Origin: Candidatus Aenigmarchaeum subterraneum SCGC AAA011-O16
GTDB taxonomy: Archaea > Aenigmatarchaeota > Aenigmatarchaeia > Aenigmatarchaeales > Aenigmatarchaeaceae
NCBI GenBank assembly: GCA_000405245.1
Contig: ASMQ01000002.1
Location: forward strand, 1 to 47,816
Length of the DNA stretch: 47,816 bases
Direction: 5' to 3'
A program made the position numbers and the translations under genes. Below are positions 19,504 through 40,027 of the stretch, in pieces; the stretch's first letter is position 1, and each line of letters begins with the position of its first letter. The notes under the pieces are model-generated. The model saw only the letters and a program-made list of their open reading frames with translations, was not told the DNA's origin and did not search any database.

Positions 19504-20352
19504 ATGAAAGGCATTTTTAATAGAACTAGTGTCATGTACGGTGCCATCATTTTAGCAATTTTACTTGGCACAGTCGGCATATCGATGATATATCAGGCTG
19601 GGACCTTTGCAAAATTTTCTTTACCAAGTTCTACGCCTCCAGACTTTGTGGCTATAAGCTTAGATGTGCCTTCGACCCTTTATCTGAGTTCATATCTTGT
19701 CAATTTTACTATTTACAACAGCGGCTCCGCTACCACCGAGCAATATAATAACTTGCTGCAGGAAAACTCGAGTGGCAATTGGACTAAAATGTCATCTCAG
19801 ATCGTTGATTCTCATCCTGAAAGAACAAACAAAGTTGTAACATTTTTAATTACGCCACAACACGCCGGAGTTTATTTTTTAAGAGCATGCGCTGATGCAT
19901 TTCTCGGATGCGATGCCGGAGTGATAACAGAGAGCGATGAAGGTAACAATATTATTTATTCAAAAGCAACAGTACTCAACCTGACTAATCTAACCGGCAT
20001 TAGAAAACCAGATTTACAGGTAGATTATTTTTTCTCTCCGATTGAGCCACAGCCTGAAGGAACTAATGTAACCATGAAGGCATATGCATTTAATGACGGC
20101 AACACGACAGCCTATAATTTTTCTTTAGAATTGTGGCATTACATTGATAAAAATGAGCTTTTCTCAAGGCTATTCATCGAATCCTTGCCGGCAGGCTCAA
20201 CAAACATTCTAAATTACACTTGGTATACCTCTAATACTACAAATGTGACAGTAACACATGTAATGAAAATCGATGTAGATCCTACAAATTCTGTTGATGA
20301 ATGGAAGGAAAATAATAATGTTGTTTTCTTTAACTATACATTAACCTCATAG
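19504..20352 (+). CDS. Membrane-anchored surface protein with two CARDB-like domains
   Basis: The 282-residue protein has an N-terminal membrane helix (about residues 13-35) and no strong cleavage site. Two CARDB-like beta-sandwich repeats follow. The first ends ACADAFLGCDAGVITESDEGNN and the second ends MKIDVDPTNSVDEWKENNNVV; the DxxNxVxExxExNN ending is the typical CARDB calcium-loop-like motif. Many N-x-S/T sites (NFT, NSS, NLT, NTT) would allow N-glycosylation. It probably sits on the cell surface as an adhesion or spacer protein. Its TAG stop shares its last base with the first base of tRNA-Ala. Confidence 0.8.
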   Translation: MKGIFNRTSVMYGAIILAILLGTVGISMIYQAGTFAKFSLPSSTPPDFVAISLDVPSTLYLSSYLVNFTIYNSGSATTEQYNNLLQENSSGNWTKMSSQIVDSHPERTNKVVTFLITPQHAGVYFLRACADAFLGCDAGVITESDEGNNIIYSKATVLNLTNLTGIRKPDLQVDYFFSPIEPQPEGTNVTMKAYAFNDGNTTAYNFSLELWHYIDKNELFSRLFIESLPAGSTNILNYTWYTSNTTNVTVTHVMKIDVDPTNSVDEWKENNNVVFFNYTLTS

Positions 20353-21257: not shown

Positions 21258-21734
21258 ATGCAAAAATTGGGCTTTGCAATCATTTCAATTTTGTTAGTTA
21301 GTATGTGTGTCCAACCAGGCGGAACAGGCGGAGGAACAGGTGGCGGCGGTGGCGGGGGAGGCGGAGCAGGACCTACACCAGGTGTAAACGCAACACAGCC
21401 TGATCTTGTAATAACAGATATAATTGTTCCGTCAAGTCTAATGCGATTTAATTCTTATAATGTTACAGTTAAAGTTAAAAATAATGACATAGGTATAACA
21501 GAACCATATTCAATTATTTTGGCTCACAATGCTGTTCCATTTCAATGGTCAGCTATAGGTACCGAAGTTGTGAGTAGTCATCCTTCTGGCACAGAAGTCA
21601 CACTGACTTATACATGGAATCCAAACTATGCAAAGACTTTCGGATTGAGAGCCACAGCAGACGCTTCCCACATTATAATAGAGAGCGATGAAACAAACAA
21701 TGTTTTAATAAAGAATGTGACTGTAGGAGGTTGA
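21258..21734 (+). CDS. Lipoprotein-like protein with Gly-rich linker and one CARDB-like domain
   Basis: The 158-residue protein starts MQKLGFAIISILLVSMCVQPGG; LVSMC is lipobox-like, with Cys17 as the probable lipid attachment or anchoring site. A glycine-rich linker encoded at about 21317-21370 follows. The rest is one CARDB-like unit (PDLVITDIIVPSSLMRFNSYNVTVKVKNND shown by its start PDLVITDIIV, and ending IIIESDETNNVLIKNVTV). It is related in domain type to the gene at 19504. Outer-surface attachment is inferred. The next gene starts five bases after the stop. Confidence 0.75.
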   Translation: MQKLGFAIISILLVSMCVQPGGTGGGTGGGGGGGGGAGPTPGVNATQPDLVITDIIVPSSLMRFNSYNVTVKVKNNDIGITEPYSIILAHNAVPFQWSAIGTEVVSSHPSGTEVTLTYTWNPNYAKTFGLRATADASHIIIESDETNNVLIKNVTVGG

Positions 21735-22321: not shown

Positions 22322-22750
22322 ATGCTCGGTCCACATCTAATACTCGATTGTTATGGTTGTGATAAAGAAAGACTGAATGATCAAAAATTTATTTTAAAGT
22401 TCTTGGATGATCTTGTAAAAGAAATTAAGATGAAAAAGATTTCTGAGCCTCAATGTGTGAACTACCCTGGCAATCCAGATTCTTTTGACAACGGTGGCAT
22501 TTCTGCTGTCGTCCTGATCGCCGAAAGTCACATTTCCGTACACACGTGGCCTGAAAATGGTGGGTATGCAAGTATAGATATTTTTTCTTGTAAGCCTTTC
22601 GATATAGAGAAGACTATAGGTTTCACTTTAGAAAGACTGAACCCGAAAAAAATTGAAAAGAAACTTATGACAAGGGGCAGAGAATTCCCGAAAGATGTTA
22701 AAAAGGCCGTTAAAATTGTTGAAAAACAAAGGCGAACATTTTCTCAATAA
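22322..22750 (+). CDS. speH: S-adenosylmethionine decarboxylase proenzyme
   Basis: This 142-residue proenzyme makes decarboxylated AdoMet for polyamine synthesis. The motif AESHISVHTWPENGG holds the self-cleavage site between Glu68 and Ser69, which becomes the pyruvoyl group. The start MLGPHLILDCYGCD is the usual N-terminus, so ATG 22322 is preferred over ATG 22313; GAGG at 22307-22310 is correctly placed for it. The last 7 bases overlap the converging pelota gene. No spermidine synthase lies in the window. Confidence 0.93.
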   Translation: MLGPHLILDCYGCDKERLNDQKFILKFLDDLVKEIKMKKISEPQCVNYPGNPDSFDNGGISAVVLIAESHISVHTWPENGGYASIDIFSCKPFDIEKTIGFTLERLNPKKIEKKLMTRGREFPKDVKKAVKIVEKQRRTFSQ

Positions 22751-23763
22751 TTTATTTTGTATCTGAGCAAACCTCCGATGCCTCCGAGTCCCAATAAACG
22801 TTCTCCGCTAGGATGTTGAGAGGAAATAATCATTACCCTTGTTTTTGTTTTATCGGCCTCCTCCAATAGCTCTTCAAATTCTCTGACCTTCTTATCTGAG
22901 ACTAGAAGAGTTTCAACTGCTCCACTCTCTACAGCAATTTTAGTGTTTTCAAAACCGTAAACGGCTTTGCCTTCTCTCGCGATTTCTATGAGCAGTTTCT
23001 CTACCATCTCAGTCTCCTCAGAAATCCTGCTGTCCTTGATAATTCTGTCGAGGACACCTCTCCGGAGCAGCTCCTGCAAGCCAACCTCTCCAGTATGCGA
23101 CAATCCATCTGTTATTATTTTTTCCAAAAGTTCTTTTTCCCTTTCAGAAATAAAATCTATAATATCTTGTCTTGTGAATCCTGGCCCGGCAATTATGATT
23201 TTTCTAAATTTCTCAGTCTTATCGCTTATAAAAGATAAAATATTTCCGTAGTATTCAGCTCTTTTTGGCTCGCCTTCTCTTTTTCCTAGACCTGGAGAAG
23301 ATAGATGAGTGATGTGCTCCACCCTCTCCCCTACAACGTAGAAATCGCATTCCCTCTCATCAAGAACACAAACAAATATCGATTCAACAGTTTTAGCAGC
23401 AGCTTTTATCCTATTTACCTCCCAAGCCTTCCAAGTCTTCTCAACTTTCAGAATGCTTCCTGATTTTATCTCTATCGTGTGGTATCCTTTCTCAAAATCC
23501 TCCGGAGCTTCAGCTATCTTTCCTGTCAAACGAAGCCTTTGACCATCGAAGTCCACTTTCTCAACTATTATTTTTAAAATTACAGGTCTTCTCCCGACCT
23601 TCTCTAATCTGTCCTCTCTCGGAATCTCCACGCTTCTGACAGTCTTAGCAGTAACAAAAACGCCCGGAACAATGATTTCCTTCAGAAGCCACAAATCATC
23701 CAAGTTCTCCGGTTTCAGTTTTGCAAGGTTGTGTTTCAAATCGAATTTTGACTTCATAAGCAA
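22744..23763 (-). CDS. pelA: Pelota (Dom34) ribosome rescue protein
   Basis: The 339-residue protein has the three domains of pelota: the Sm-like N-terminal domain (NLAKLKPENLDDLWLLKEII, then KTVRSVEIPRED), the eRF1-like middle domain (IAGPGFTRQDIIDFI, LGKREGEPKR) and the C-terminal domain (AVYGFENTKIAVESGAVETLLVSD). It recognises stalled ribosomes and works with aEF1-alpha and ABCE1. As usual, it lacks the GGQ of release factors. A TATA-like stretch at 23782-23793 on the minus strand suggests a leaderless message. Confidence 0.95.
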   Translation of the reverse strand: MLMKSKFDLKHNLAKLKPENLDDLWLLKEIIVPGVFVTAKTVRSVEIPREDRLEKVGRRPVILKIIVEKVDFDGQRLRLTGKIAEAPEDFEKGYHTIEIKSGSILKVEKTWKAWEVNRIKAAAKTVESIFVCVLDERECDFYVVGERVEHITHLSSPGLGKREGEPKRAEYYGNILSFISDKTEKFRKIIIAGPGFTRQDIIDFISEREKELLEKIITDGLSHTGEVGLQELLRRGVLDRIIKDSRISEETEMVEKLLIEIAREGKAVYGFENTKIAVESGAVETLLVSDKKVREFEELLEEADKTKTRVMIISSQHPSGERLLGLGGIGGLLRYKINY

Positions 23764-24602: not shown

Positions 24603-25538
24603 ATGACATGGTACTGTCCTAGGTGCGCATATCTAAATGATAATGCATGGATTAGATGCGCTAATTGTGGAGGATCAAAGGTATTCCAAGGACCTCCGCC
24701 ACCAACCCCGCCACCTCAAGCTAATCCTCCTCCAGCTCAAAATCCTGCTCCAAGGTATGTTCCTCTTGGAGAAGAAACTGCAAAAGCTGTAGCCGCTATT
24801 CCTAAAATTTTTGGGTTGCCTTTACGGGCAATGACTGGTTTTTTAGGAAGGACACCAGAAGAGAGACAAAAGGCTGTAGGAGCTATAGGAAAAGGGGAAC
24901 AGTGGGCAACCAAAAGAATAGAAAATGTCAGTGATGCTGCGTGGAGAGCAAAACAAGAAGCTTTGCAAAGAGGCTATGTAGAAAATCCTTCAGTCGCTAA
25001 CTATATACATTGGAAAGAAGAACGAGTGAAAGCTCCGCTCGGAACATTCAGATTTGGGCAAGCATCCCGTTTGTATCACGGAGTAACTCTTCGTTTGGCT
25101 AGAACAGGTTTAGGGGGAAGGATGCTCCGAATGGGCATAGAACCTGAGTTGCGAGACAATATTATTAAATTAGTATTCTTTTTTGGTGCTGGCTCATTCG
25201 TATATACAGTTTTTAATTTTCAAAACCTAGGCATAGCTTTAATACTTTTTGGTTTCATGAGCGTTCTTCCATCTGAAGGAAAGATTTTGGCAAAACAGAG
25301 AGAAATAGCTTACAAAAGATTTGATGCTAAAGCCAGAAATCTTAGAGATGATGTTGTAAAAATCATGAGAGATGAGGGCGAAGATGCTGCAAGAGCGTTT
25401 TTGCAAGGCAAGAACCTCTCTGTAGGTGAAGCAAATCAGATTTTAGCGGAAGCCAGAAACCAGGTTTTGTCAGAATATGAGACACAGATTGCTAAAAGAC
25501 AATTGAGCAGATTAAAAAAATTATCTGAAGAGGAGTAG
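24603..25538 (+). CDS. Zinc-finger membrane protein, unknown family
   Basis: This 311-residue protein opens with a RanBP2-like zinc finger, WYCPRCAYLNDNAWIRCANCGG (ligands Cys5, Cys8, Cys19, Cys22). A Pro-rich linker (PPPPTPPPQANPPP) and a helical charged region follow, then one or two membrane helices at about 188-230 (IIKLVFFFGAGSFVYTVF and LGIALILFGFMSVL), and a long charged helical C-terminus. The finger and tail are probably cytoplasmic. It is followed after five bases by the 698-residue membrane protein. A cytoplasmic partner or signalling arm of the surface complex is a reasonable guess; I know no such described family. Confidence 0.65.
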   Translation: MTWYCPRCAYLNDNAWIRCANCGGSKVFQGPPPPTPPPQANPPPAQNPAPRYVPLGEETAKAVAAIPKIFGLPLRAMTGFLGRTPEERQKAVGAIGKGEQWATKRIENVSDAAWRAKQEALQRGYVENPSVANYIHWKEERVKAPLGTFRFGQASRLYHGVTLRLARTGLGGRMLRMGIEPELRDNIIKLVFFFGAGSFVYTVFNFQNLGIALILFGFMSVLPSEGKILAKQREIAYKRFDAKARNLRDDVVKIMRDEGEDAARAFLQGKNLSVGEANQILAEARNQVLSEYETQIAKRQLSRLKKLSEEE

Positions 25539-25543
25539 TTAGA

Positions 25544-27640
25544 ATGCCAGAAGAATTAACATTGACATCAGCGCAGACCACAATGCTGGTCATGAGGGCA
25601 GGACTGAAACTAATTGTTATCATTCTCATTGCTTTTGAGCTTTCTCGAATACATCCATTCGCGACTCTGCTTGTTTTGTTTGCAGGTTACTTTTCGATGC
25701 CAACAGCCTACTATACAGACAGACCTTATCAAGCTGTCGAAGCTTGGTTTAGATTTTGGTTAGGTTTTTACATACCTGTTGTAATTTGGGCAATCTTCTC
25801 CGGAAATGTTTCAGTTTTATTGAATCTCGGAACCGCAACACAGGCAACCTTCTCCGCTCTTCTCAGTGCTGTAATCTTTGTTTTTTCTTTTGGCTTCATT
25901 AAAACAGGAATTTTCGTTGCTAATGGTGGAGTTCAGACAGCAATCGCGGCTCTGGTATTAATTGCTTTCGCTTTTTTCCCAACGTTTCCAGAGAGAAAAG
26001 AAGAAACAGCTTTGACAATAAAAATGATTGGAAGTAAAATCGGTGGTGCGGTCTCTGAAAATTCAAGAGGACTAGGAACCTTTTTCTTTGTCGTCTTCAT
26101 GATTTACGCTCTCCTCTATATTTTCAGTCCGCAAGCAAATCTCGGAAACCTATTCTATCCTTTTTTGACAATATTCATGATAACATTTTTCATGGGTTGG
26201 GTCGGAGGTAGAGAAGGCAGACCTTATGCAGGAATCATTGCGTTAGGATTTGCCTTGTTCGCTTTTTCCTTCTCTTACACAGGAACATTTGGAGCAGCTG
26301 TATTCGGGCAATGGTGGCCTGTGGTTCAAAGCACGTCCTCACAGTTTTTCACGCCTTTGGCTGAATCTTTCAGCGGAGTTTCGCAAGGTCTCAGCGACAC
26401 CCTTCTTTTAGTGTCAAATCCAGCAGCATGGTGGGCCAAGCAACAGACATCTACGCAGACTAGTGGCGGAGAATTGACACAAGGTGGTACTGTGAAGTCT
26501 ATCGAATTTACTAATTTTGAAGCTATAAATTATGGAACAGCTACTCCGAACATCGATCCTCTGCTTCCATTGATTGGAAGCGTTGAATTGGAAAACCAAG
26601 GAGATTTTGTTGCAGACTCCATAGTCGTTACTTTAGATCAACCAAAAGTTAAAGACCCTAACAAGATCGGTGCAGCTTATACATCAGGCGCTTTAACAGA
26701 TTTGGCAAACGATAATTGTGTTTTTAATGTGTGTACCGGAACCACCCCAACACCAGATAGCAAAACATGCAACTGGCCGGCATCGACATTCCCAGGCGAA
26801 GTTAAATTAATGACATTCAAATGTGGTGATTCTGTGTCGTCATCCCCCTATAAGCAATGGGCAATACCATCTATTACAAGCCATGACACTCAAGTTGACT
26901 ATGAACAGCGAACAATTGACGACGCTTCCATAAATCAATGCCATTGCGTTACTAGTGACAATAAATGGACAAGTTCGTCTTGTGTTAGCAGTAGCATGTG
27001 CCCGCTAGACCCATCAGATCCAACAGGTCAGTCACGCCAATCAAAAGTTTACACACTAGGAGGGTGGTCCACAGTCATAGGTTTCAAATATACGTTCGGA
27101 TATGATGTGAATGTTTCCCTTCCTGTCGATGTTATGAATCTGACAGTTTTTGTCCGAAAGCTTGCGGCAAAAGAAATAACAGTCCAGTCTAAAGAATCGC
27201 AATTTAGTGGGGGTCCGCTGAAAGCTGTGATATTTGTTCAAAAACAGCCTCTAAGAGGTGGGGAAGAGTCTTTCGGAAGAATCTCAATTGTGAATACAGG
27301 TCAGGGCACAGCAAAAAGCGCGACACTAACAATGTTCATACCCAAAAACATTACAGGCATACCTTTGTCAAACGGGCCTTCAGAAATCAGCAAGTCAGGC
27401 TTGATGAATTGTGCAACATCAGATATCACTTTAGGGAACATCCTTTACACAAAATTGGCCTGTGATTTAGCCAGCGATCTAAAACCTGATGCTGCCGCAA
27501 CTTACACTTTCAACTTCCAATATGATTTGGATAATAGCTTAGAAACAAAGTCTGTACTCTTCATAGGCGATATAAAATACACTTACGAGACTTTGAAGAC
27601 ACTCGAGATGCCGATATTGCAAGGGCCATTATCCCAATAG
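25544..27640 (+). CDS. Polytopic membrane protein with large extracellular domain
   Basis: Of 698 residues, the first 290 or so form eight to ten membrane helices (LIVIILIAFELSRI, ATFSALLSAVIFVFSF and so on). The remaining 400 are outside the cell. The outer part has two beta domains separated by a cysteine-rich stretch (NCVFNVCTG, NQCHCVTS, SSCVSSSMCP). Its last 150 residues (GGPLKAVIFVQKQPLRGG to YDLDNSLETKSV) resemble the C-terminal half of the three lipoproteins that follow. The family is not recognised. Without enzyme motifs, it looks like a platform or channel for an envelope complex. Confidence 0.65.
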   Translation: MPEELTLTSAQTTMLVMRAGLKLIVIILIAFELSRIHPFATLLVLFAGYFSMPTAYYTDRPYQAVEAWFRFWLGFYIPVVIWAIFSGNVSVLLNLGTATQATFSALLSAVIFVFSFGFIKTGIFVANGGVQTAIAALVLIAFAFFPTFPERKEETALTIKMIGSKIGGAVSENSRGLGTFFFVVFMIYALLYIFSPQANLGNLFYPFLTIFMITFFMGWVGGREGRPYAGIIALGFALFAFSFSYTGTFGAAVFGQWWPVVQSTSSQFFTPLAESFSGVSQGLSDTLLLVSNPAAWWAKQQTSTQTSGGELTQGGTVKSIEFTNFEAINYGTATPNIDPLLPLIGSVELENQGDFVADSIVVTLDQPKVKDPNKIGAAYTSGALTDLANDNCVFNVCTGTTPTPDSKTCNWPASTFPGEVKLMTFKCGDSVSSSPYKQWAIPSITSHDTQVDYEQRTIDDASINQCHCVTSDNKWTSSSCVSSSMCPLDPSDPTGQSRQSKVYTLGGWSTVIGFKYTFGYDVNVSLPVDVMNLTVFVRKLAAKEITVQSKESQFSGGPLKAVIFVQKQPLRGGEESFGRISIVNTGQGTAKSATLTMFIPKNITGIPLSNGPSEISKSGLMNCATSDITLGNILYTKLACDLASDLKPDAAATYTFNFQYDLDNSLETKSVLFIGDIKYTYETLKTLEMPILQGPLSQ

Positions 27641-27650
27641 GTTTATATTT
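27641..27650 (+). promoter_or_regulatory. Possible internal promoter before the lipoproteins
   Basis: GTTTATATTT in the 37-base gap after the membrane-protein stop lies 28-37 bases before the ATG at 27678. It could give the lipoproteins extra, separate expression from the upstream membrane genes. Confidence 0.35.
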
Positions 27651-27677
27651 GTAACTTTCCAAAAAAGGTTAGATAAG

Positions 27678-28649
27678 ATGAATACAAAAGTTTTGATGGG
27701 TTTAGTTTTCGTTGTTTTATCGAGTGCTTGTATTGGTCCTGGAGGCCTCCAGTCTATTTTTGGTGGCGGCCCATCGCAGCCCACTACAACAGAGCTTCCT
27801 CCGGATATCATAACTGTTGAAAATATCAACGTTCTTCCTACTCCGCCTCTTTCAGCGGACAGCGATTTTTCATTATCATTTGAAGTAAAAAATCAGGATG
27901 ACATTCAAGATGTCAATAACGTAGGTGTGTGGTTGTTTGATTGGGGTTTATGTTCCGAACCATCAAACATTGCAAAGATCGGTGTTTTTGTTCCTGGTTT
28001 TGACACACCAAGTCACACTGTTAATTTCGCTCCTTTGCAATCAGAGCCTGTCGAATGGCGATTCAAAGCTCCTTCGAATCAATTGATAGGTGGTTTGCCA
28101 ACAAACTGCAATCTCAGGTTTAAAACCAATTATAGTTTTTCTGCAATAACACAAATTGATGTCGGAGCAATTTCTGACTCAAGATTAAGAGAACTGCAAA
28201 GAGCAGGACAGACACCTTCATTTTCTCCAACACAGAGCATCGGCAGAGGCCCGATCAAAATATCATTTGATTTTGGTGTCCCGTTACCTGTGAGGGCAGC
28301 AACAATTTTGCCAGTCTTTATAACCGTTGAAGATAAAGGCTCCGGAACGTTTAGTGACATTCCTACAAACGGACTAACAATTAAAGTTCCCTCAAGTTTT
28401 GTCCCTGTTTCATGCGATAAATTTGCAGTTTCAAACGAAACCGATCCAAACTTTCCCGGTTTCACAATTTTAAACAACACGGAAAGAATACCTATGATTA
28501 AAAAGAAATCACCTGCTGTTAGATGTTCATTCAATTTAACAGAGGGCATATCACTGGAAAAAACATACAATCTGTTTGCAAACATGACTTACGCTTACGA
28601 TTTGATTTCAGAAAATTCAGTCTCTATCAAACCCACAATAGCAAGATAG
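27678..28649 (+). CDS. Lipoprotein 1 of a three-paralogue set
   Basis: The 323-residue protein starts MNTKVLMGLVFVVLSSACIGPGG, a lipobox-type signal with Cys19. An N-terminal CARDB-like domain (ADSDFSLSFEVKNQDD) and a middle strand section with WRFKAPSNQ and CNLRFKTNYSFSA follow. The C-terminal domain begins GPIKISFDFGVPLPVRA and ends CSFNLTEG, then YAYDLISENSVSI. Cysteines are few and paired in position with the neighbours. It lies on the outer surface and shares its build with the next two genes and the tail of the 698-residue protein. Confidence 0.68.
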   Translation: MNTKVLMGLVFVVLSSACIGPGGLQSIFGGGPSQPTTTELPPDIITVENINVLPTPPLSADSDFSLSFEVKNQDDIQDVNNVGVWLFDWGLCSEPSNIAKIGVFVPGFDTPSHTVNFAPLQSEPVEWRFKAPSNQLIGGLPTNCNLRFKTNYSFSAITQIDVGAISDSRLRELQRAGQTPSFSPTQSIGRGPIKISFDFGVPLPVRAATILPVFITVEDKGSGTFSDIPTNGLTIKVPSSFVPVSCDKFAVSNETDPNFPGFTILNNTERIPMIKKKSPAVRCSFNLTEGISLEKTYNLFANMTYAYDLISENSVSIKPTIAR

Positions 28650-28656
28650 GATAGTT

Positions 28657-29544
28657 ATGAATAAATCTAATATCTTATTGCTTTTTCTAATTGTTGGAGT
28701 TTCTGCATGCCTAGGATTTCCTGGCAATCAGGCTTTGGTCTCTTCCCCGACAATAAAATCTGTTGAAAATCAAGATGTATTTTTTAATGTTGAGGCTACT
28801 CCTGCGGACATAAAGGTAGGGAAGAACGTAACGCTTTCATTGAGCTTGAGAAACAACGCTGCATCAAACATCACGGACGCAAAGGTTTTGGCTTTTGACC
28901 AGTGTCTATTCTCCGGAGAAACTGAAAAAGAATTTTCTTCTTTGAGACCGAACAGGACAGAGCTCTGGGTTTGGAGATGGACTGCTGGTACGACAGAATT
29001 TCCAAGAGACTGCCAACTAAGCTTTAGAACAGAGTATTCAGCTTCAACAAAACTAACCAGTGATATTGCTGTCCTGTCCGACGCAGAATTTAATGCACGG
29101 GTTCAAGCCGGAACTTTGAAAGACCTGCCAATACTTTTGAGAAAAGAAGACAAGCCTTTAAGCCTGTCTGTAGCGTTCTCCGAACAACAGCCTTTTCTGG
29201 GAAATGATGTGATCTCTATCTACATTGACTATGCAAACACCGGAGCAGGCATTATGAATGAATTAAATCCAGGAGACATTGAGATTGAAATACCGGCCAA
29301 TCTGCAGCCGACCACTCCGAACATCCCAGAATGCGGAACAGCCTACGGTTTTGTGAACAACAATCCGAACAAACTAACTTTGATAAAAACTCTGTCTTTT
29401 ATAAACAATAAAGCTCCGAGAACAACCTGTACATTCAAAACCAACACTTCTCAACCAATTAATATACAAACGTTTCAGATAACAGCAAACTATAAATATA
29501 TGCTTGATAATTCTATAGTAGTCAAGGTCTTACCTATCAGGTGA
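28657..29544 (+). CDS. Lipoprotein 2 of a three-paralogue set
   Basis: The 295-residue protein starts MNKSNILLLFLIVGVSACLGFPG, with the lipobox cysteine at 18. The order of blocks repeats lipoprotein 1: a CARDB-like part (VGKNVTLSLSLRNNAAS), WVWRWTAGT, CQLSFRTEYSAST, then DKPLSLSVAFSEQQPFLGND, RTTCTFKTN and ANYKYMLDNSIVVKV. It starts 7 bases after the previous stop and overlaps the next gene by four. Function is unknown; a structural or ligand-binding role on the envelope is inferred. Confidence 0.68.
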   Translation: MNKSNILLLFLIVGVSACLGFPGNQALVSSPTIKSVENQDVFFNVEATPADIKVGKNVTLSLSLRNNAASNITDAKVLAFDQCLFSGETEKEFSSLRPNRTELWVWRWTAGTTEFPRDCQLSFRTEYSASTKLTSDIAVLSDAEFNARVQAGTLKDLPILLRKEDKPLSLSVAFSEQQPFLGNDVISIYIDYANTGAGIMNELNPGDIEIEIPANLQPTTPNIPECGTAYGFVNNNPNKLTLIKTLSFINNKAPRTTCTFKTNTSQPINIQTFQITANYKYMLDNSIVVKVLPIR

Positions 29545-30518
29545 AAAAGTTGGATAAAAAATTATTCGTTTTATTCGCAATATTAGCTACTTCTGGTTGC
29601 TTGGGTTTAGGTGGCGGCGGTGGGACTCCAACAGCGGTTTCAGGAAACGGTCTTGTCATAACAAACTTTACTGCAGACCAATCTTCAGTCTTCGAGAACA
29701 AAACAGTAAGGTTGTTTTTTAATGTAGAGAATCAGGGAGAATCAACAGTCAGCAAAGGCACAACTTTAATTTTACTTTTAGGTTCTAATATTGGGAATTC
29801 GATAGGAAGTTGGAGAGTAGAAGCTCCGGATAGAACCGGAGACGGCAATGGCGATGTGCTTTTGAATTTGTCAAAAGATTTGAATCCAGCAGATTCGATA
29901 AGAGGTGTTCCTGCAGGAAGGGACTCATTTACATGGAGATTGAGATCTCCTGAAAACTTAGCAAAAGGCGAAGAACGACCTGATGCTTTTGTTTCAAGAG
30001 TATATTATGATTATAAAACAACATCTTCAGGAACAATATGGTTCTATTCTGAGGCAGAGGCATCGGCCGCAAGGGATAGAGGAGAGGTTTTGCAGAAATC
30101 AAGTTTCATAGCTACTAGAGGGCCTTTGTCAGTTTCAGTTTCAACTGCTCCGGATCCTGTAATCGTTCCAGGCGGTGGAGAAACTTACACGCTCTCGATA
30201 GTCATAACAAATGTAGGTGGCGGAGTATTACTCAAACCAGGAAAAGTTGATGCATCAAAAACCGATCCTAGCCAGTTTGTCATTACAGAAGATGATTTGA
30301 ATAAACCCACTGTGATAATTCGTGATCAAGACGGTAACCAAGTAGCTGCGAGCTGCACATCTGATGTTGAACTTATACAAGGAAAATCCACAACCATAAG
30401 CTGTGACATAAACGAACCTTCTCCACCATCAGCAAAGACAGGGAAAGCATTCAAAGTTGAAGCAACATACGGATACTATATTGACAGAAGCATAACTGTG
30501 ACTGCTTTGGGAAAGTAA
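29541..30518 (+). CDS. Lipoprotein 3 of a three-paralogue set
   Basis: The 325-residue protein begins at GTG with MKKLDKKLFVLFAILATSGCLG, lipobox Cys20, and then a short Gly run. The block order matches the other two: NKTVRLFFNVENQGEST, FTWRLRSPEN, VYYDYKTTSSGTIWF, RGPLSVSVSTAPDPVIVPGG, TTISCDINEP and ATYGYYIDRSITV. The GTG overlaps the stop of lipoprotein 2 (GTGA), so translation is coupled. It closes the operon; the converging endonuclease Q gene ends at the next base. Confidence 0.68.
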   Translation: MKKLDKKLFVLFAILATSGCLGLGGGGGTPTAVSGNGLVITNFTADQSSVFENKTVRLFFNVENQGESTVSKGTTLILLLGSNIGNSIGSWRVEAPDRTGDGNGDVLLNLSKDLNPADSIRGVPAGRDSFTWRLRSPENLAKGEERPDAFVSRVYYDYKTTSSGTIWFYSEAEASAARDRGEVLQKSSFIATRGPLSVSVSTAPDPVIVPGGGETYTLSIVITNVGGGVLLKPGKVDASKTDPSQFVITEDDLNKPTVIIRDQDGNQVAASCTSDVELIQGKSTTISCDINEPSPPSAKTGKAFKVEATYGYYIDRSITVTALGK

Positions 30519-31775
30519 TCACAAAAACTCCTTAAGATTTTTTTGAGGCTTTTCTGCAAATTCTTTTTCTTCCAGGATCAGTTTTCCATAGACTCCGTCG
30601 TAGCCAGGCTGGATTTTTAATTTGGCTTCTCGGTTTCTAATAATTATGTCTGCGATTTTTTCTCCGGAGAGCAGTTTAAGCTTTTCGTAGTTTGTATCGA
30701 GCAAAACATTCAGTTCTGTTCCAAATTCTTTCACAAGTTTTGTTGATTCCTCCCAAACCCTTTTCGAGAAAGGTTGTGTGTTATAAATTGCTGCAAGAAG
30801 TTCAGCAAGAGGAATTAATCTTTTAAATGGAATCGAGTTCTCAGGTACGAAATTTTCAGGTCTATCAGCAAGCTCTTCCACCCTATGCTCAACTCCGATT
30901 GTCAATTTCTTTTTGCATATTGGACAGAAATTTTGATGACTAATTGCATCCTTTGGTTTCAAGAAAACCCCACAATTTCTATGGCCATCCCAATGATATT
31001 TTCCATATGCCGGATCGACTTCAATTGTAAATAAAAACCTTTTCTTATCCTTTTCTTTTATTGCAGAAAATATTTCATTGTAATCTAGATGTTTTAACTC
31101 CAAAATATTCGCCTCTCTGCCCAGTCTCCAAGGCCAAGGTGAATGACAATCCGAATTTGAAACAAGAGTGAATTTATCCAGAGAAGAAAGCCTCCAATTC
31201 ATTGCCGGATCGCTAGACAGGCCGGTCTCCAAAGCCAAAATGTTTTTTGTCTGGTCTTTGTAACATTCTTCAACCGAATCAAAGCCTGTTTTAGAGCCAA
31301 AAAGTCCGAACCATGGAGTCCAAATATGTGCGCTGATTATTCCAATATCTTTTGAAATTTTCATCAGATTTTCAACAAGTTCAACACAAGTCAGATTATT
31401 GAATATCGGCCTCCCATCAGAAGACAAATTTCCGTATTTTTTCAAAAAGTCATTTATCTGTTCCACGATTTCAAAACTAGGTGCAATCAAAACATTATGA
31501 ATTTTTCTAGTTTTGCCGTCCTGCTCATAAATATTGCAAATTTCATTCTGCAAAATAAAGTTTATTGTTTTGTCTCTATAATGAAAAATCCCCGGAGCAG
31601 TCTCTTTCAAATTAGCTTTCAATTCTTTGAACCATAATGGATGAGAGAAGTCTCCGGTCCCAATTAAATTTAGTCCTTTTATTTTTGAAAACTTTTCCAA
31701 ATGTTCCAAGTCCATATCTTTAGATGTTGCTCTAGCATATTTTGAATGGAGATGCAGATCCGCAAATATTTTCAT
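30519..31775 (-). CDS. Endonuclease Q (PHP-domain DNA repair nuclease)
   Basis: The 418-residue protein matches the archaeal EndoQ family, which cuts 5' of deaminated bases and abasic sites. The PHP domain starts ADLHLHSKYARATSKDMDL (HxH metal site at 8-10), with GTGDFSHPLW, HIWTPWFGLFGSKTGFDS and VSNSDCHSPWPWRLGRE as further metal and fold motifs. A zinc finger follows (NCGVFLKP, then FCPICKKKL, and EHRVEELADRP). Length is normal. It stands alone between the lipoprotein operon and tRNA-Val. Confidence 0.9.
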   Translation of the reverse strand: MKIFADLHLHSKYARATSKDMDLEHLEKFSKIKGLNLIGTGDFSHPLWFKELKANLKETAPGIFHYRDKTINFILQNEICNIYEQDGKTRKIHNVLIAPSFEIVEQINDFLKKYGNLSSDGRPIFNNLTCVELVENLMKISKDIGIISAHIWTPWFGLFGSKTGFDSVEECYKDQTKNILALETGLSSDPAMNWRLSSLDKFTLVSNSDCHSPWPWRLGREANILELKHLDYNEIFSAIKEKDKKRFLFTIEVDPAYGKYHWDGHRNCGVFLKPKDAISHQNFCPICKKKLTIGVEHRVEELADRPENFVPENSIPFKRLIPLAELLAAIYNTQPFSKRVWEESTKLVKEFGTELNVLLDTNYEKLKLLSGEKIADIIIRNREAKLKIQPGYDGVYGKLILEEKEFAEKPQKNLKEFL

Positions 31776-33374: not shown

Positions 33375-33812
33375 ATGATTCAAAAAGAAGAAGCAAATGA
33401 GAAAATACAGAAAGGTTGGCTAAGAGCTTGGTTGATGTTTGAAGTCTTGGCTGTGAATAGCAAAGCAGCAAAAGAGGCTTTAGAAGAATTGATAGAGAAA
33501 TTGGATAAAGACGAAAGAGCAAAATTATATAAAAGAGAGTTCACTGACATTCAAAAAGTCGACAAACCTCTTGAAAATATAGAAGTAGGCTATTCGCAGA
33601 CTTGCGAGATCGAATTTATTACAAAAAACCTTGATAGTTTGGTTCAAATTGTTACAGAATATGGTCCTTCCGCAGCTGAGCTTTTGGAGCCAAGCGAATT
33701 GAAACTAAGACCTGGAGAAGCTCAAGCCATTCTCAATACAATTTCAAGCATGATGCACCAGTTTGCTTCAGCAGGAATCGGCGGAATAGTTTTTGTAAGG
33801 GGAGAAAAATGA
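33375..33812 (+). CDS. Conserved archaeal hypothetical protein
   Basis: The 145-residue soluble protein is helical at the start (GWLRAWLMFEVLAVNSKAAKEALEELIEKL), then has mixed alpha-beta content. TEYGPSAAELLEPSELKLRPGEAQAILN and a C-terminal GIGGIVFVRGEK are distinctive. No metal or nucleotide motif is seen. It overlaps the following membrane regulator gene by four bases (ATGA), so the two are translated together, and it may be a cytoplasmic partner of that regulator. Confidence 0.65.
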   Translation: MIQKEEANEKIQKGWLRAWLMFEVLAVNSKAAKEALEELIEKLDKDERAKLYKREFTDIQKVDKPLENIEVGYSQTCEIEFITKNLDSLVQIVTEYGPSAAELLEPSELKLRPGEAQAILNTISSMMHQFASAGIGGIVFVRGEK

Positions 33813-34735
33813 AGGCATTTTTAGGAATTTTGATAGGGTTAGTATATTTAACGGCCCCTGTTTTTGCTCAGGGAATCTCAAATTTTGACGGTAATGCGAA
33901 GATTGAAGGCGGAGATGTAGTCCACAATGTTTATACTATAACGTTCGAAGCTGGGCAGTACACCGAATTAAGATTGCCACTTTTTTACGATATTCAGAAT
34001 TTTAAATCAACCGCGAATTTCGATAATCTGAAATGCAGTGTTCAAAGACAGACATTCGGAACCGACGTTATTTGTGATATTTCCGGGATAACAAGCGATA
34101 AAAGAGAACTTACCATAGAGTACGATTCACTCGAAACAATTAAAGTTGTTGACAACCAATCTCTTTACAAAGAAGATCTCCATATACCCTTTTCTGTGGT
34201 AAATTTCTTTTTCAAAGTATCGTTGCCTGAGGGTATGATTTTGATTGAAAAAAGTGACCTCTTCCAGCCTTTTCTCCCTAAAGACGGCGAACCAGCTACA
34301 GATGGTAGAAGAATACTTGTCTTCTGGAAGAGGATAGGCTTAGTTGCAGGCGAAGATCTGAGCTTCCAAGCGGCTTACGAACCCTCGAGAAGGTCCAATT
34401 CCCAAGGTTTCTTTTTGGGTGATACAAACAACTTAATAGGGGTCATAGTTGTTATAGGGGCTTCACTTGCAGGTCTCGGGCTTTATTGGAGAAGAACCAA
34501 ACCTGTCAGAATGATACTCCCTTTCCTTAAATCTGACGAAAAGAAGGTTTTTGAAGCCTTAATGAAGCATGGGGATGGCGTTAACCAGAAGCTTATAGTC
34601 AGGGACAGCACCTATTCTAAGGCAAAAGTGTCAAAAGTACTGAAAAGCCTTAATGAAAGGGGTCTTGTGAAGCTCGAAAGGGTCGGTAGGACAAATAAGG
34701 TGTATATGGTCAAGGAAATTCAAAAGAAGACCTAA
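33809..34735 (+). CDS. Membrane-spanning winged-helix transcriptional regulator
   Basis: The 308-residue protein has a signal-type N-terminus (FLGILIGLVYLTAPVFAQG), an outer beta-rich domain of about 190 residues, and one membrane helix at about 212-232 (LIGVIVVIGASLAGLGLYW). A cytoplasmic winged helix-turn-helix follows at about 245-303 (KKVFEALMKHGDGVNQKLIV, then SKAKVSKVLKSLNERGLVKLERV). One chain therefore joins an outside sensor to a DNA-binding domain. It lies directly upstream of the S-layer gene and could regulate envelope genes; that target is inference. Confidence 0.8.
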   Translation: MKAFLGILIGLVYLTAPVFAQGISNFDGNAKIEGGDVVHNVYTITFEAGQYTELRLPLFYDIQNFKSTANFDNLKCSVQRQTFGTDVICDISGITSDKRELTIEYDSLETIKVVDNQSLYKEDLHIPFSVVNFFFKVSLPEGMILIEKSDLFQPFLPKDGEPATDGRRILVFWKRIGLVAGEDLSFQAAYEPSRRSNSQGFFLGDTNNLIGVIVVIGASLAGLGLYWRRTKPVRMILPFLKSDEKKVFEALMKHGDGVNQKLIVRDSTYSKAKVSKVLKSLNERGLVKLERVGRTNKVYMVKEIQKKT

Positions 34736-34962: not shown

Positions 34963-35012
34963 AAACCGAGGTGATGAAGAATCATTTCGGGAATAAAGGA
35001 GGAATGAAAGAA

Positions 35013-37451
35013 ATGCAATTTAGAAAATTAACTGCCGTAGCAGGTTCGGCTTTGATTGGAGCTTTGTCCATAGCCGCGCCAGTTTTAGCGTCTACGGTGA
35101 GTCAAGTAGGACAAATAAACAGTTTAGTTAGTGTCGACCAAACGACACAAGCAGTTAGCTTCCCATGGTTCGTAGTGGGAGCTTCAGCTCAGACAGCAGA
35201 TGTCGCAGGTGCTGTAGATGTTGCAGTAAGACTAGCAGCACAAGCAAAGACAACTGTTTCAGTTTCAGGAACAGGGGCTGCCGTTAATGGAATAAGTAGG
35301 AATGGAATAAGAATCGGTGGTTCTAATGTGAACGCAGCTGGAAACTTAGCCAACGCCACAACAGGTGGTTCTGCATTCCCATCTGGAACTCTAAGAGCAA
35401 TCCATTATCCAAACCTCTTTGATGGAACCCTTACTTACCAAGGTTCATCCTATAACGTCAGAGATGACGTGGATGTATCTGGAGTATTTGTAAGGAACGG
35501 TTTGAGCGTAGAGAAGGTCAACGGAACCTTAACACTGGATATTGGTGACAACGATTTGATCTACGACTACATTTTCGGAACAACGATCGTAGGTATCGGT
35601 GGTATTAGCAATCCAAACTACACCTACCCAGTAGTTGTTAAATTAATGGGTAAGCCGTTTACAATAGTGGGTTCTGATGCGACAACCATAAAAGCCTTAG
35701 TAGGAGCCACTGGAACATCTGATGCAACAACAGGAGTGACTTATGGAACATACACAGCATATGCGACAGAAGGTGCAACAGACTCTTGGGCAAAAGTCGT
35801 TATAAAAGATGCAACAGGAAACACAGTAGATAGTTTAATCATATCGAATACACAGAGCAAGGACTCTTCTGCGACCGGTCTAACCATTAAAGTAACATCT
35901 GTAAAGGCTAGACAGGACAACACCATAGTAGGTGCTGATCTGGTTGTTGGTCCAACAGGTTCTGTTGAACACACGTATGATTCGTCTGCTGATGTAACAA
36001 GTACAGGAACTACAAGCGATAGATTCCCAGGAGAAACACAATGGGCCATTGATTTCCAAGCAGCAAGTGGAACAGCTCAAGGTGCTGGTAACCTTGCAAC
36101 AAACAGTAAAATAAGAGTAGTTTACTTGCCAAACACTGCATCAGGAAACAATGTTTTCCTAAGAGCAGGACAAAGTATATCGCTACCAGGCAACTTTGCA
36201 AACTTAGGGCTTTTGGGCTTCAATACAAATACATTTGCAACTGTAACATTGAAACCTGTAGGTCCTATATCTGGTTACTTCCAGAACGGAACTCTAATGT
36301 ACACAAACTTGTACGGTTTGCAAATATCTTCGGATACACCAGGTTCGATTTGGAGCCTACAAAACAGTGCAACGCTTGGAAAGAACAACCCATATGCAAA
36401 AGCATACGTGTTGTTCAACTCTAGTAATGGAGCAAACGGTGGTGTTGTTGCAGTAGGATATCCAGATCCAACTGGAAAAATCCTATTAAACGACACAATA
36501 AAGCCGTCACCAACTGCAAACTCTACATTTGGTAGACAAGAGTATGCATGGGCAAATCTTTGGACAGGCACTGCTCCAATACCAACTGGTAACTTTGTTG
36601 ACTTTCCGTTTATTATAAACCAAGGAGAAACGGATTTTGTCTTAAACGTTACAGTGTCAGTTGGTCTAGCTTCGACAACAGTAACTGCGAGTACTAATAT
36701 CAGAGCATGGGCAGGTGCAGGTTCTTCAATCGCTGCCGCAGCCGCTGATCAGACTGGAGTGGTGATGGACTGGAGAAACACAACAACTTGGGGAAGTGAC
36801 TTCTCTTCGACACCTATGAAAATTCAGTTAGGTACAACCCTGAATAGCAGGGATGCGAGAGAAGTTAACATATCAACCGAAGGTTTCGCAGTGACAAACA
36901 GTCAATCCGGACAAGATGGAAGTAGTGCACAACAGAATGTCGTAACAGACTCTGGTATCCAGCTTATTAACCAGTACGATAATGGACCTTCAGAAAAGGT
37001 TGTGATACAGTTCCCATCCAAGACATTGGCTGCAAACATTTACTTCGGTCAGTTGACTGGTGGAGCAACAGGTGCTGGAACAGCAGACAAAATAATACCA
37101 ATAACCACTGACGTGGTAAAACTTGACAGCGAAGTCACTGCCGCAGATCAATCTGCAGCAGATTTGGTCTTAGTTGGAGGACCTTGCGTTAACACCCTAG
37201 TCGCAGCTTTGAATACTGCAGGCAAATTTGCATACAGTTGTAGCAGTTGGCCAGGAAGCAACTTTGGTTGGATTGGTCTAATCAACGATGCTTTCGCAAC
37301 TGGTAAGACTGTATTGATAATTGCCGGTACAAGAGCAGCTGATACAGACTTAGCAGCAAGAGTAGTCCAAGATGGAACAAAACTCGCTGGAAGCATAAAG
37401 TCTTCGGTTCAGGTAACTGGAACTACAATTAGCGATGTCGTCGTAACTTAG
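35013..37451 (+). CDS. S-layer protein
   Basis: The mature cell-surface lattice protein is about 810 residues. I choose ATG 35013 because AAGGAGG (34996-35002) is ideally spaced for it and it gives a normal signal peptide, MQFRKLTAVAGSALIGALSI, then AAPVLAS. Starts at 34971 (GTG), 34974 and 35004 are in frame but poorly spaced from any SD. After the signal, VSFPWFVVGASAQTADVAGA and, at the C-terminus, DLVLVGGPCVNTLVAAL and KTVLIIAGTRAADTDLAARV are the two halves of a domain typical of archaeal S-layer proteins. The middle is Thr/Ser/Asn/Gly-rich with many N-glycosylation sites. It is probably among the most abundant proteins. Confidence 0.9.
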   Translation: MQFRKLTAVAGSALIGALSIAAPVLASTVSQVGQINSLVSVDQTTQAVSFPWFVVGASAQTADVAGAVDVAVRLAAQAKTTVSVSGTGAAVNGISRNGIRIGGSNVNAAGNLANATTGGSAFPSGTLRAIHYPNLFDGTLTYQGSSYNVRDDVDVSGVFVRNGLSVEKVNGTLTLDIGDNDLIYDYIFGTTIVGIGGISNPNYTYPVVVKLMGKPFTIVGSDATTIKALVGATGTSDATTGVTYGTYTAYATEGATDSWAKVVIKDATGNTVDSLIISNTQSKDSSATGLTIKVTSVKARQDNTIVGADLVVGPTGSVEHTYDSSADVTSTGTTSDRFPGETQWAIDFQAASGTAQGAGNLATNSKIRVVYLPNTASGNNVFLRAGQSISLPGNFANLGLLGFNTNTFATVTLKPVGPISGYFQNGTLMYTNLYGLQISSDTPGSIWSLQNSATLGKNNPYAKAYVLFNSSNGANGGVVAVGYPDPTGKILLNDTIKPSPTANSTFGRQEYAWANLWTGTAPIPTGNFVDFPFIINQGETDFVLNVTVSVGLASTTVTASTNIRAWAGAGSSIAAAAADQTGVVMDWRNTTTWGSDFSSTPMKIQLGTTLNSRDAREVNISTEGFAVTNSQSGQDGSSAQQNVVTDSGIQLINQYDNGPSEKVVIQFPSKTLAANIYFGQLTGGATGAGTADKIIPITTDVVKLDSEVTAADQSAADLVLVGGPCVNTLVAALNTAGKFAYSCSSWPGSNFGWIGLINDAFATGKTVLIIAGTRAADTDLAARVVQDGTKLAGSIKSSVQVTGTTISDVVVT

Positions 37452-37508: not shown

Positions 37509-38132
37509 ATGGAGCAGGAAAAACCTAAACGAAAAATTGATTATACAAGCATAGGAGCTCTAGTCTTATTTTTAGGAATAGTTTTTGTTGTTTTCACCGT
37601 CGGAATCAGCACACCACAAAAAAGCCCTTATGAAAGAGAATTTGGCGGAACAACACTCCATTTCAGATCTAATTTAGACGAGGCTGCAAAAGTTCCTGTT
37701 TACCCAAGCGAAAAAGCATTGAATGACACATTAATCAACGATAGCATAAGATGGCTTAACACCGCAAAGTACAGAATTGCTTACATAGACAATGCGACCG
37801 AAGATCCTGTTTATTATGCTGCTGCAATATCTTTGGCATCGCATCTGACTACTATAAACACCCTTTATTATCCAAGCGAAGACCGTAAAACCGTGGATTT
37901 GTATCCTGTGAAGTCTGTTGACGAAGCTTACAACTCAACATACTTTAAAATACCTATATTTTTGCTTTTAGGCCCCTCGCATGCAAATGAAACATCAGTA
38001 ACAGTCAGAGGAGATCTAAGCCTTATAATCATCCAAGGAAAAGACTTTTCTAAAACAGACCGGACATACACAGATTTAGAGCTTGCTGCAGACAAATTAA
38101 TATTAGTTTTAATGGGCAATAATGCAAAGTGA
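37509..38132 (+). CDS. Membrane-anchored extracellular protein, unknown
   Basis: The 207-residue protein has a basic N-terminus, one membrane helix (ALVLFLGIVFVVFTVG, about 18-34) and an outer alpha-beta domain. The outer part has FKIPIFLLLGPSHANETSVTV and LSLIIIQGKDFSKTDRTY, with no catalytic motif I can name. GGAGGT lies seven bases before the ATG. It overlaps the glycosyltransferase gene by 11 bases, so translation may be coupled. It could present or accept a glycan or assist S-layer assembly; this is a guess from position. Confidence 0.6.
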   Translation: MEQEKPKRKIDYTSIGALVLFLGIVFVVFTVGISTPQKSPYEREFGGTTLHFRSNLDEAAKVPVYPSEKALNDTLINDSIRWLNTAKYRIAYIDNATEDPVYYAAAISLASHLTTINTLYYPSEDRKTVDLYPVKSVDEAYNSTYFKIPIFLLLGPSHANETSVTVRGDLSLIIIQGKDFSKTDRTYTDLELAADKLILVLMGNNAK

Positions 38133-39363
38133 TATTATGGCAAACCTAATAGATGACATTTTAATCTCCATGTTCTCTTTTTGGGTACTGTTTTTCTCAT
38201 TCATGTTTCTAGTAATATTTTCTGAGAAAAAAGACAAACTCCACTCAATACCGAGTTTGTCAAAACTCCCCAGTCTCTCGATAATCATACCAGCTTACAA
38301 TGAAGAAAAATCTATTGAAACTACAATAAAAAACGTCAAGAGTCTGCTCTACCCTAAAAGATTATTAGAAATTGTCGCTGTTGACGATGGCTCCACGGAC
38401 AAGACACTCGATATTTTGAAAAAAATTAAAGGCTTAAAAGTAATAAGCAAAAGACATGGCGGGAAGGCTACTGCATTGAATGTAGCCTTGGGAAAAGCTA
38501 AAGGCGAGTTATTTGCTGTTATAGATTCTGACTCTTTTCCGAAAAGAGACGCTCTTTTGAAATCTATTCCATACTTTTCTGATGAATCAGTAAAAGCTGT
38601 GACAACCTCCATATTTATTTACAAACCTAGGAATTTGCTGGAAAGAATGCAGCAGATTGAATACGCGATAATAGCTTGGGGAAGAAAACTTCTAGAATTT
38701 TTAGACAGTGTTTCTGTTACTCCGGGGCCCTTGAGCATTTACAGAACAGACACTTTAAGAGAAATAGGAGGATTTGATACAAAAATTGTAACAGAGGATA
38801 TTGAGATTGCATGCAGACTGCTCTCTAAAAATCATAAAGTTAAAATGGCTTATGATGCAAGAACGTTCACAAGAGCTCCTTCCACTTTTAAAGAATGGTG
38901 GCATCAAAGAATAAGATGGAATGTTGGAGGCATGCAGATAATTTCAAAATACGGAAAATCGATTTTCAGGAGCGGATCTTTTGGGATGTTCGTGCTTCCT
39001 TGTATGATACTTTCCTTTGCTCTTACTTTTGGAATGCTCGGATACGGTTTGTACAGAATTGGGAAATGGATAATGATTTCAGGGACAGTACTTTCGAATT
39101 TAATTTTCTTCGGCTTTAATCCCCTTTATAATGTTCAATACCTTTTCATTCCTGATGTTTTGACAATATTACTGCTTGCTATTCTAGTAACATCTCTGAT
39201 AACTACAAGAAGAGCATTGCGTTCCACCCGTATAACAATTAGTAAAAAAACAGCGAATTACATTTTTAATTTGGCAATATACTTTTTTGTTTATCCCGGA
39301 GCATTCGTTTTTAATATGGTGGCCTCTCTATGGAAGTTTCTAAGAAAAGATTACATGTGGTAG
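38122..39363 (+). CDS. Membrane glycosyltransferase, family 2
   Basis: The 413-residue processive-type GT2 enzyme has an N-terminal membrane helix (about 15-36). Its GT-A domain has LSIIIPAYNEEKSIETTI, VDDGSTDKTLDIL, AVIDSDSFPKRD (DxD), VTEDIEIACRL (catalytic TED) and QRIRW (QxxRW). Two to four membrane helices follow to the C-terminus. The layout matches poly-N-acetylglucosamine or cellulose-type synthases. Met6 (38137) is another possible start. Placed just after the S-layer gene, it may build a surface polysaccharide or glycan. Confidence 0.9.
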   Translation: MQSDIMANLIDDILISMFSFWVLFFSFMFLVIFSEKKDKLHSIPSLSKLPSLSIIIPAYNEEKSIETTIKNVKSLLYPKRLLEIVAVDDGSTDKTLDILKKIKGLKVISKRHGGKATALNVALGKAKGELFAVIDSDSFPKRDALLKSIPYFSDESVKAVTTSIFIYKPRNLLERMQQIEYAIIAWGRKLLEFLDSVSVTPGPLSIYRTDTLREIGGFDTKIVTEDIEIACRLLSKNHKVKMAYDARTFTRAPSTFKEWWHQRIRWNVGGMQIISKYGKSIFRSGSFGMFVLPCMILSFALTFGMLGYGLYRIGKWIMISGTVLSNLIFFGFNPLYNVQYLFIPDVLTILLLAILVTSLITTRRALRSTRITISKKTANYIFNLAIYFFVYPGAFVFNMVASLWKFLRKDYMW

Positions 39364-39364
39364 C

Positions 39365-40027
39365 ATGCGAAATGTCTTCTTGAAATCAGCAATTATTACA
39401 GCCATAATCTTCTTCATAGGAATATATTTGGGTACATGGCTTGACTCTAATAGACTGCAGGAAATAAAAACTTCTTTGTCACAGAATGAAGTTGATTTGG
39501 ACGACATACGATTACAGAGCATAATTTTTCAAAGTTCTCTCGGATCCAAAACATTCTGTAATGCCGCATTCAAAAGTAATTTGGATTTGAACGGTAAGGC
39601 ATACGATCAATGGGTCAAAATCGAAGAATATGAAAAATCGAACAGATTTGATACCTCTTCATTAACATTGGAAAAAATACGCTACAACCTTCTCCAACTT
39701 CAGTTCTGGGTCAATAGCATAAACATAAAGAATGAATGTAATACAAACTACTCGAATGTCGTCTATTTTCATTTAGGTGAAGAGCCCATTTCTGATAGTG
39801 TCAGGATTGAACAGTCTACTCTTTGGACAATGCTCCAGGAAATAAAAACACAATGCGGAGATAAAATAATGCTAATTCCTCTTCAGACTGATTTGAATAT
39901 CGGTTCAATAAATCTGGTTTTAGAAAACTACAATGTTACGCAGATGCCTGCTGTTCTCATTAATGATAAAACAGTTCTTTACGGACTTCATCAGAAAAGC
40001 GAGATACTCGGTTATCTGAACTGTTAA
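39365..40027 (+). CDS. Membrane-anchored thioredoxin-like protein without a CXXC site
   Basis: The 220-residue protein starts with a membrane helix (AIITAIIFFIGIYLGTWL) and a helical stretch. Its last 90 residues look like a thioredoxin fold: VVYFHLGEEP, MLIPLQTDLNIGSINLVLENYNVTQMPAVLIND, with the cis-Pro type TQMPAV. The usual CXXC is absent, and the cysteines at CNAAF and ECNTNY lie elsewhere. It is probably outside the membrane and non-catalytic, perhaps a scaffold. It begins one base after the glycosyltransferase stop. Confidence 0.6.
   Translation: MRNVFLKSAIITAIIFFIGIYLGTWLDSNRLQEIKTSLSQNEVDLDDIRLQSIIFQSSLGSKTFCNAAFKSNLDLNGKAYDQWVKIEEYEKSNRFDTSSLTLEKIRYNLLQLQFWVNSINIKNECNTNYSNVVYFHLGEEPISDSVRIEQSTLWTMLQEIKTQCGDKIMLIPLQTDLNIGSINLVLENYNVTQMPAVLINDKTVLYGLHQKSEILGYLNC

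Follow-up and report, generated by a model that had tools for sequence, protein, structure and literature searches.

Six genes on the plus strand make up a compact cluster in the window, the whole 47,816-nucleotide stretch of archaeal DNA analysed here (table 1). Five of them, between 24603 and 30518, had been proposed as an operon in a sequence-only reading; all five open reading frames are present at those positions, and recomputation returned the same spacing, successive genes being 5, 37, and 7 bases apart in three cases and overlapping by 4 bases in the fourth. A unit of five genes is nevertheless too small. A sixth gene on the same strand, gene A, lies 43 bases upstream of gene B, opens the cluster in most relatives and is part of the conserved unit. 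The cluster is tightly bounded by a diverging pelota gene 31 bases from gene A and a converging PHP-type gene that abuts lipoprotein 3 with 0 bases between them, indicative of a compact genome. The source assembly comprises 428,886 bases, is judged to be 42% complete, and has metagenome-assembled genomes of Candidatus Aenigmatarchaeota (DPANN) as its nearest named relatives.

Table 1. Positions in the window of the cluster genes, their features and the neighbouring genes
Feature	Position	Strand	Description and basis
pelota	22744-23763	-	eRF1 domains; 31 bases from gene A, divergent
gene A, 254 aa	23795-24559	+	predicted N-terminal membrane anchor and two jelly-roll (carbohydrate-binding-like) domains; first in the conserved cluster
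gene B, 311 aa	24603-25538	+	zinc ribbon, proline-rich linker, membrane hairpin; ORF, fused forms, hhalign
zinc-ribbon motif of gene B	24615-24668	+	CPRC-x10-CANC; sequence, weak Zn_ribbon_3 and DZR matches below cut-off
gene C, 698 aa	25544-27640	+	polytopic platform with outer part; ORF, relatives in 85/156 genomes, predicted model
platform signature	26279-26326	+	TGxxGxxxFGxWWPxV at the end of the last membrane helix; alignment of 34 platforms
platform outer part	26453-27616	+	two beta domains homologous to the lipoproteins; lipoprotein-1 profile matches residues 304-691, E 1.1e-37
lipoprotein 1, 323 aa	27678-28649	+	lipobox Cys18 at 27729-27731; ORF, family, tree, conserved Cys
lipoprotein 2, 295 aa	28657-29544	+	lipobox Cys18 at 28708-28710; ORF, family, tree, conserved Cys
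lipoprotein 3, 325 aa	29541-30518	+	lipobox Cys20 at 29598-29600; ORF, tree, class scores
PHP-type protein	30519-31775	-	related to TIGR00375, score below its cut-off; abuts lipoprotein 3, convergent
S-layer protein	34971-37451		PF05124, E 1.8e-18; followed by an unassigned gene, then the GT2 gene
family-2 glycosyltransferase (GT2)	38122-39363		downstream of the S-layer gene
DUF63 membrane protein	40024-40839	-	PF01889, E 1e-60; 9.5 kb downstream of the cluster, past the S-layer and GT2 genes

The S-layer and glycosyltransferase genes lie 4-9 kb downstream of the cluster. Several smaller genes were also noted in the vicinity. A 282-residue protein with two CARDB matches (E 1e-18), likely a surface protein, is encoded at 19504-20352, and a short lipoprotein (158 aa) with a glycine-rich linker and one CARDB-like domain at 21258-21734; the latter weakly matches the first half of the lipoprotein family described below (35 bits). 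Two overlapping genes occupy 33375-34735, the first encoding a 145-residue protein without a family that is also found close to the cluster in several relatives, and the second a protein that combines a signal at its N-terminus, a membrane helix, and a TrmB-like DNA-binding domain at its C-terminus.

The sequence-only reading could assign none of its five proteins to a named system, and neither these nor gene A scored above cut-off against Pfam or NCBIfam, including the archaeal type IV pilus and archaellum families of both collections. None of the six matched PADLOC or PHROGs, which rules out a known defence system or phage family. Profiles built for the families of gene A, of the platform, and of the lipoproteins gave no meaningful relative when searched against solved structures, and an integrin- or arrestin-like identity for the platform was rejected because Foldseek returned only generic beta-sandwich proteins with very low TM-scores. 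Our literature searches found no description of the cluster.

Proteins of the cluster

The three consecutive genes at the 3' end of the cluster had been read as lipoproteins in the sequence-only reading. Each carries a lipobox, and its cysteine is invariant in 61 of 61 lipoproteins aligned by paralogue; we predict that all three products are lipidated. Further conserved cysteines (four in the first and second lipoprotein classes, two in the third) fit the expectation for disulphide-bonded domains outside the cell. A profile seeded with lipoprotein 1 and refined iteratively on the cluster loci matched lipoproteins 2 and 3 over their full length, and also the outer part of the platform (table 1). 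In a tree of 90 such units, obtained by a quick search without bootstrap and with some weak basal forks, the platform parts grouped with an SH-aLRT support of 95 and the third lipoproteins with 97, both drawn from many families, the second lipoproteins with 94, and the first with 86-96, the first lipoproteins of families f10 and f11 falling outside the main clades. Separate position-specific clades imply that the paralogue duplications are older than most family divergence in the phylum. On this sequence comparison, the three lipoproteins and the outer part of the platform are four ancient paralogues, each with two predicted Ig/CARDB-like domains, that have kept their lineages and their gene order. 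Matches to CARDB itself (PF07705) are faint: lipoprotein 3 reached 14.7 bits where the gathering cut-off is 22.7, neither of the other two lipoproteins nor the platform matched it in Pfam, and five of 15 aligned lipoproteins matched it weakly (best 6.6e-5).

In gene B, residues 5-22 show a CxxC-x10-CxxC pattern, and a hydrophobic hairpin follows at about residues 190-225. Its zinc finger had been called RanBP2-like, and residues 3-22 do fit the RanBP2-type W-x-C-x2-C-x3-N-x6-C-x2-C letter for letter, a cysteine spacing that generic zinc ribbons share. No match to the PF00641 profile was found for gene B, the best Pfam models being Zn_ribbon_3 and DZR (both below cut-off), and among its relatives DZR at 4e-7 outscores Zn_ribbon_RanBP (PF00641, one relative) at 1e-3. 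The motif spacing thus stands, but the profiles favour generic zinc ribbons, with RanBP2 as one option. This zinc-ribbon hairpin protein is separate in the window and in two relatives (G009 and G007), and the counterparts of genes B and C form one continuous open reading frame of 782 to 1007 residues in G001, G002, G004, G005, G006, and G012. G001 and G007 are members of a single genus, which makes the split or fusion a recent event in their case. Separate gene B proteins align to the fused N-termini with hhalign probabilities of 97.6-98.2, and blastp with locus L041 gave 7e-6 across the hairpin. Judged from these alignments, gene B is the N-terminal part of the platform, here split off as a protein of its own; most close relatives have the two fused. 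The idea of five unrelated subunits consequently fails, given this origin of gene B, the paralogy of the lipoproteins with the platform outer part, and the overlooked gene A.

Gene C had been described as polytopic with a large outer part, which agrees with about seven helices in a hydropathy scan, or nine when read with the positive-inside rule (a topology derived from hydropathy and charge rather than from a dedicated predictor), followed by a beta-rich region at residues ~304-691. Its structural model was computed from an alignment of only 7 sequences and has a low-confidence membrane part. Platforms of other families are longer, at 1,100 to 1,600 residues, and several have no recognisable zinc pair; those of f11 comprise 434-449 residues with about three helices, and in f14 and f22 no platform was recognised by genome search or in the loci. 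A cytoplasmic zinc arm is therefore not a constant feature. In the alignment of 34 platforms, the GxxxFGxWWPxV signature is degenerate in f8, f17, and f11, and on this comparison the constant part of the platform is the end of the membrane domain, which bears the signature, together with the outer domains. At two loci of f9 (L022 and L024) the platform looks split elsewhere, with a large zinc-ribbon protein of ~5 helices abutting a second protein of 465-589 residues that has 4 helices and an outer part.

The AlphaFold2 model of gene A shows an N-terminal helix and two beta-sandwiches (mean pLDDT 85 for the best model, 56-72 for the other four). Foldseek related these to jelly-roll domains of GH35, CBM51, and BcsB at E about 1e-6, and also of PNGase F, with TM-scores that are low over the full length, so that the likeness holds only at the level of the domain fold. 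As modelled, gene A is a membrane-anchored protein with two jelly-roll domains, and from the fold only we infer that it may bind sugar.

Gene content and order across the Aenigmatarchaeota

Among 156 genomes of the phylum, gene A was found in 140 (and in 38 of the 39 of high quality), the lipoprotein family in 142, a count that may include matches to the homologous platform, and the platform in 85, which is probably an undercount because its membrane part diverges fast. When gene A and the platform are on the same contig they are at most 12 kb apart in 45 of 47 genomes; adjacency counts take one best match per genome and cover 137 of the 140 genomes that have gene A and 83 of the 85 that have a platform. 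Recurrence of the gene order was checked in the labelled open reading frame tables of 33 loci, which show one arrangement time after time: a diverging pelota gene, gene A, the zinc ribbon and platform, the lipoproteins, and a converging PHP gene. That this arrangement recurs in dozens of divergent genomes is far beyond chance. Unrelated genes were seen within the cluster at two loci, one of 657 aa between gene A and the platform (L039, 9775-11748) and one of 460 aa on the opposite strand between the platform and lipoprotein 1 (L038, 7075-8457). The distribution of the platform outside the phylum was assessed at low sensitivity only: a single-sequence scan of 84,980 species gave no match, and a scan with the platform alignment found only seven loci, all titled Aenigmatarchaeota bar one titled Nanoarchaeota that matches G001, of the window's own family.

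Some families depart from this arrangement. The loci of f14 and f22 contain gene A and DUF63, in some cases a small protein of four helices, and then one or two lipoproteins or anchored relatives ahead of PHP; the lipoprotein nearest PHP scores best as the third class in all seven loci examined. A platform that goes unrecognised in these families cannot be essential to every form of a complex. In f16 the cluster is dispersed, with gene A adjoining pelota, the lipoproteins adjoining PHP, and the platform adjoining DUF63 and a pilus-like operon. That f16 keeps the genes though the operon is broken suggests a need for their products. At loci L046 and L048 of this family, DUF63 is directly beside the platform, and the neighbouring operon, which runs on the opposite strand to the platform, appears to encode pilin-like proteins, a probable secretion ATPase, and two TadC-like membrane proteins, identities drawn from open reading frame size and helices only.

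These departures bear on two alternative explanations. The cluster could be a transport or export machine, in which the platform would be a pore or translocase fed from the zinc arm and the lipoproteins outer guides. The polytopic membrane domain, the cytoplasmic arm, the conserved FGxWWPxV signature at the outer boundary, and the pilus-like operon beside the f16 platform are consistent with such a machine. However, the cluster has no ATPase, the membrane part of the platform model is of low confidence, and this part is reduced to about three helices in f11 and unrecognised in f14 and f22 while the other genes stay. A platform that is shortened or undetected in some families argues against an obligatory translocase, and we consider export improbable. 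Alternatively, the genes may encode separate surface proteins that form no complex and merely share a stable, compact neighbourhood, as the short distances to the flanking genes, the f16 pieces each lying beside its own flank, and the further CARDB-type surface genes nearby (19504-20352 and 21258-21734) would allow. Against this, the order persists over many divergent families, genes B and C undergo fusion and splitting, and the platform forms a colinear set of four paralogues with the lipoproteins; we find such independence of the products quite doubtful.

The S-layer family is present in 134 of the 156 genomes and hence nearly universal, so its co-occurrence with the cluster is uninformative and its presence gives no specific support. 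DUF63 was found in 130 of the 156. Of 47 genomes with DUF63 and the platform on one contig, 40 have the two within 12 kb of each other; for DUF63 and gene A the figure is 46 of 57. DUF63 sits inside the cluster island in many other families and outside the cluster in the window's order. A lead on its function comes from Haloferax, whose protein HVO_2859 we take to be AliB. HVO_2859 is annotated as DUF63 (PMC9426492), and AliA and AliB are two paralogues needed for lipidation of archaeal lipoproteins (PMC12186497). DUF63 is thus possibly the archaeal lipoprotein-lipidation family AliA/AliB, a lead drawn from one locus-tag annotation. Its proximity raises the main rival explanation, that the cluster is an envelope-biogenesis factor helping to place lipoproteins or S-layer subunits on the surface, with DUF63 lipidating the lipoproteins and the platform and lipoproteins providing a site where exported proteins fold or assemble. 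The S-layer and glycosyltransferase genes near the cluster in the window would suit this role. The link to AliB is tentative, however, DUF63 stands apart from the cluster in the window's own gene order, and the operon includes no chaperone- or enzyme-like protein, all of which leaves a biogenesis factor unlikely in our judgement.

Possible function at the cell surface and comparison with known systems

Aenigmatarchaeota are uncultured archaea with small genomes that are presumed to depend on partner cells, and we know of no mechanistic work on their surface. The evidence establishes the cluster as real, conserved, and apparently undescribed, made of familiar folds (Ig-like and jelly-roll) as in archaeal surface assemblies. 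Of the earlier reading as a membrane-spanning assembly, what holds is an undescribed conserved envelope gene cluster, with no profile match to a named machine and a gene order kept across the phylum; the five unrelated subunits do not hold, and the cytoplasmic arm varies between families.

The explanation we prefer, at confidence no better than evenly balanced, is a lineage-specific hetero-oligomeric surface complex of Aenigmatarchaeota, probably a scaffold or adhesin near the S-layer. Such a complex is supported by the phylum-wide cluster, the four-way paralogy, the fusion of genes B and C, the jelly-roll model of gene A, the invariant lipobox cysteine and conserved cysteine pairs, the retention of the genes in f16, and the nearby S-layer and glycosyltransferase genes. 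Lipid anchors would keep the lipoproteins attached to the membrane's outer face, beneath the S-layer, where they and the platform (B+C) would present homologous two-domain units outside the membrane. These four units may pack together into a hetero-oligomeric collar around the platform, a reasonable inference given that paralogues of ancient origin which stay together in an operon often assemble into hetero-oligomers. Gene A would be a jelly-roll subunit apart from these and may bind a glycan at the surface, such as one carried by the S-layer or by another cell, and in families that keep the zinc-ribbon arm this arm would connect the complex to cytoplasmic factors. Most likely the complex has a structural or adhesive role: it may fasten the S-layer, or some other assembly at the surface, or hold partner cells. 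A scaffold or adhesin seems to us a better reading than a translocase, since it is the membrane domain and the zinc arm that vary and the cluster contains no ATPase. A more elaborate version appears rather unlikely to us: a phylum-wide trans-envelope organelle in which four homologous Ig-like units, those of the platform and the three lipoproteins, form a ring around a membrane platform that has an arm in the cytoplasm and a partner that binds sugar, serving contact with host cells or envelope exchange.

This gene set occurs in most of the phylum, its order recurs, and it matches no recognised family, all of which makes it a prime candidate for a core function at the surface. Named targets for imaging and for pull-downs from enrichments are available in gene A, the platform signature, and the four paralogues, and the repeated DUF63 neighbourhood gives a way to ask whether archaeal DUF63 proteins in general act on lipoproteins.

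The cluster shares elements with several known families and systems. DUF63 (PF01889), possibly AliA/AliB, belongs to the island in many families, beside lipoprotein genes, but also occurs in Methanocaldococcus, Haloferax, and Methanosarcina and is therefore not specific to the cluster. The two outer domains predicted for gene A have a fold in common with the jelly-rolls of GH35 beta-galactosidases, CBM51, PNGase F, and BcsB; its operon differs in having neither an enzyme domain nor a glycosyltransferase partner, and there is no sequence match. The lipoproteins and the platform outer part resemble tandem CARDB-type domains (PF07705, E-set Ig-like), whereas their two-domain unit is a family of its own in Aenigmatarchaeota, the window proteins scoring below the CARDB cut-off. 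The VARTIG module of Thermococcales is likewise archaeal and membrane-associated and combines Ig/CARDB-type surface proteins with small membrane proteins (PMC8416519). However, the gene content of VARTIG is hypervariable and has a single large Ig protein at its start, whereas the Aenigmatarchaeota cluster is conserved in content and order, includes lipoproteins and a zinc-ribbon platform, and thus stands apart from VARTIG.
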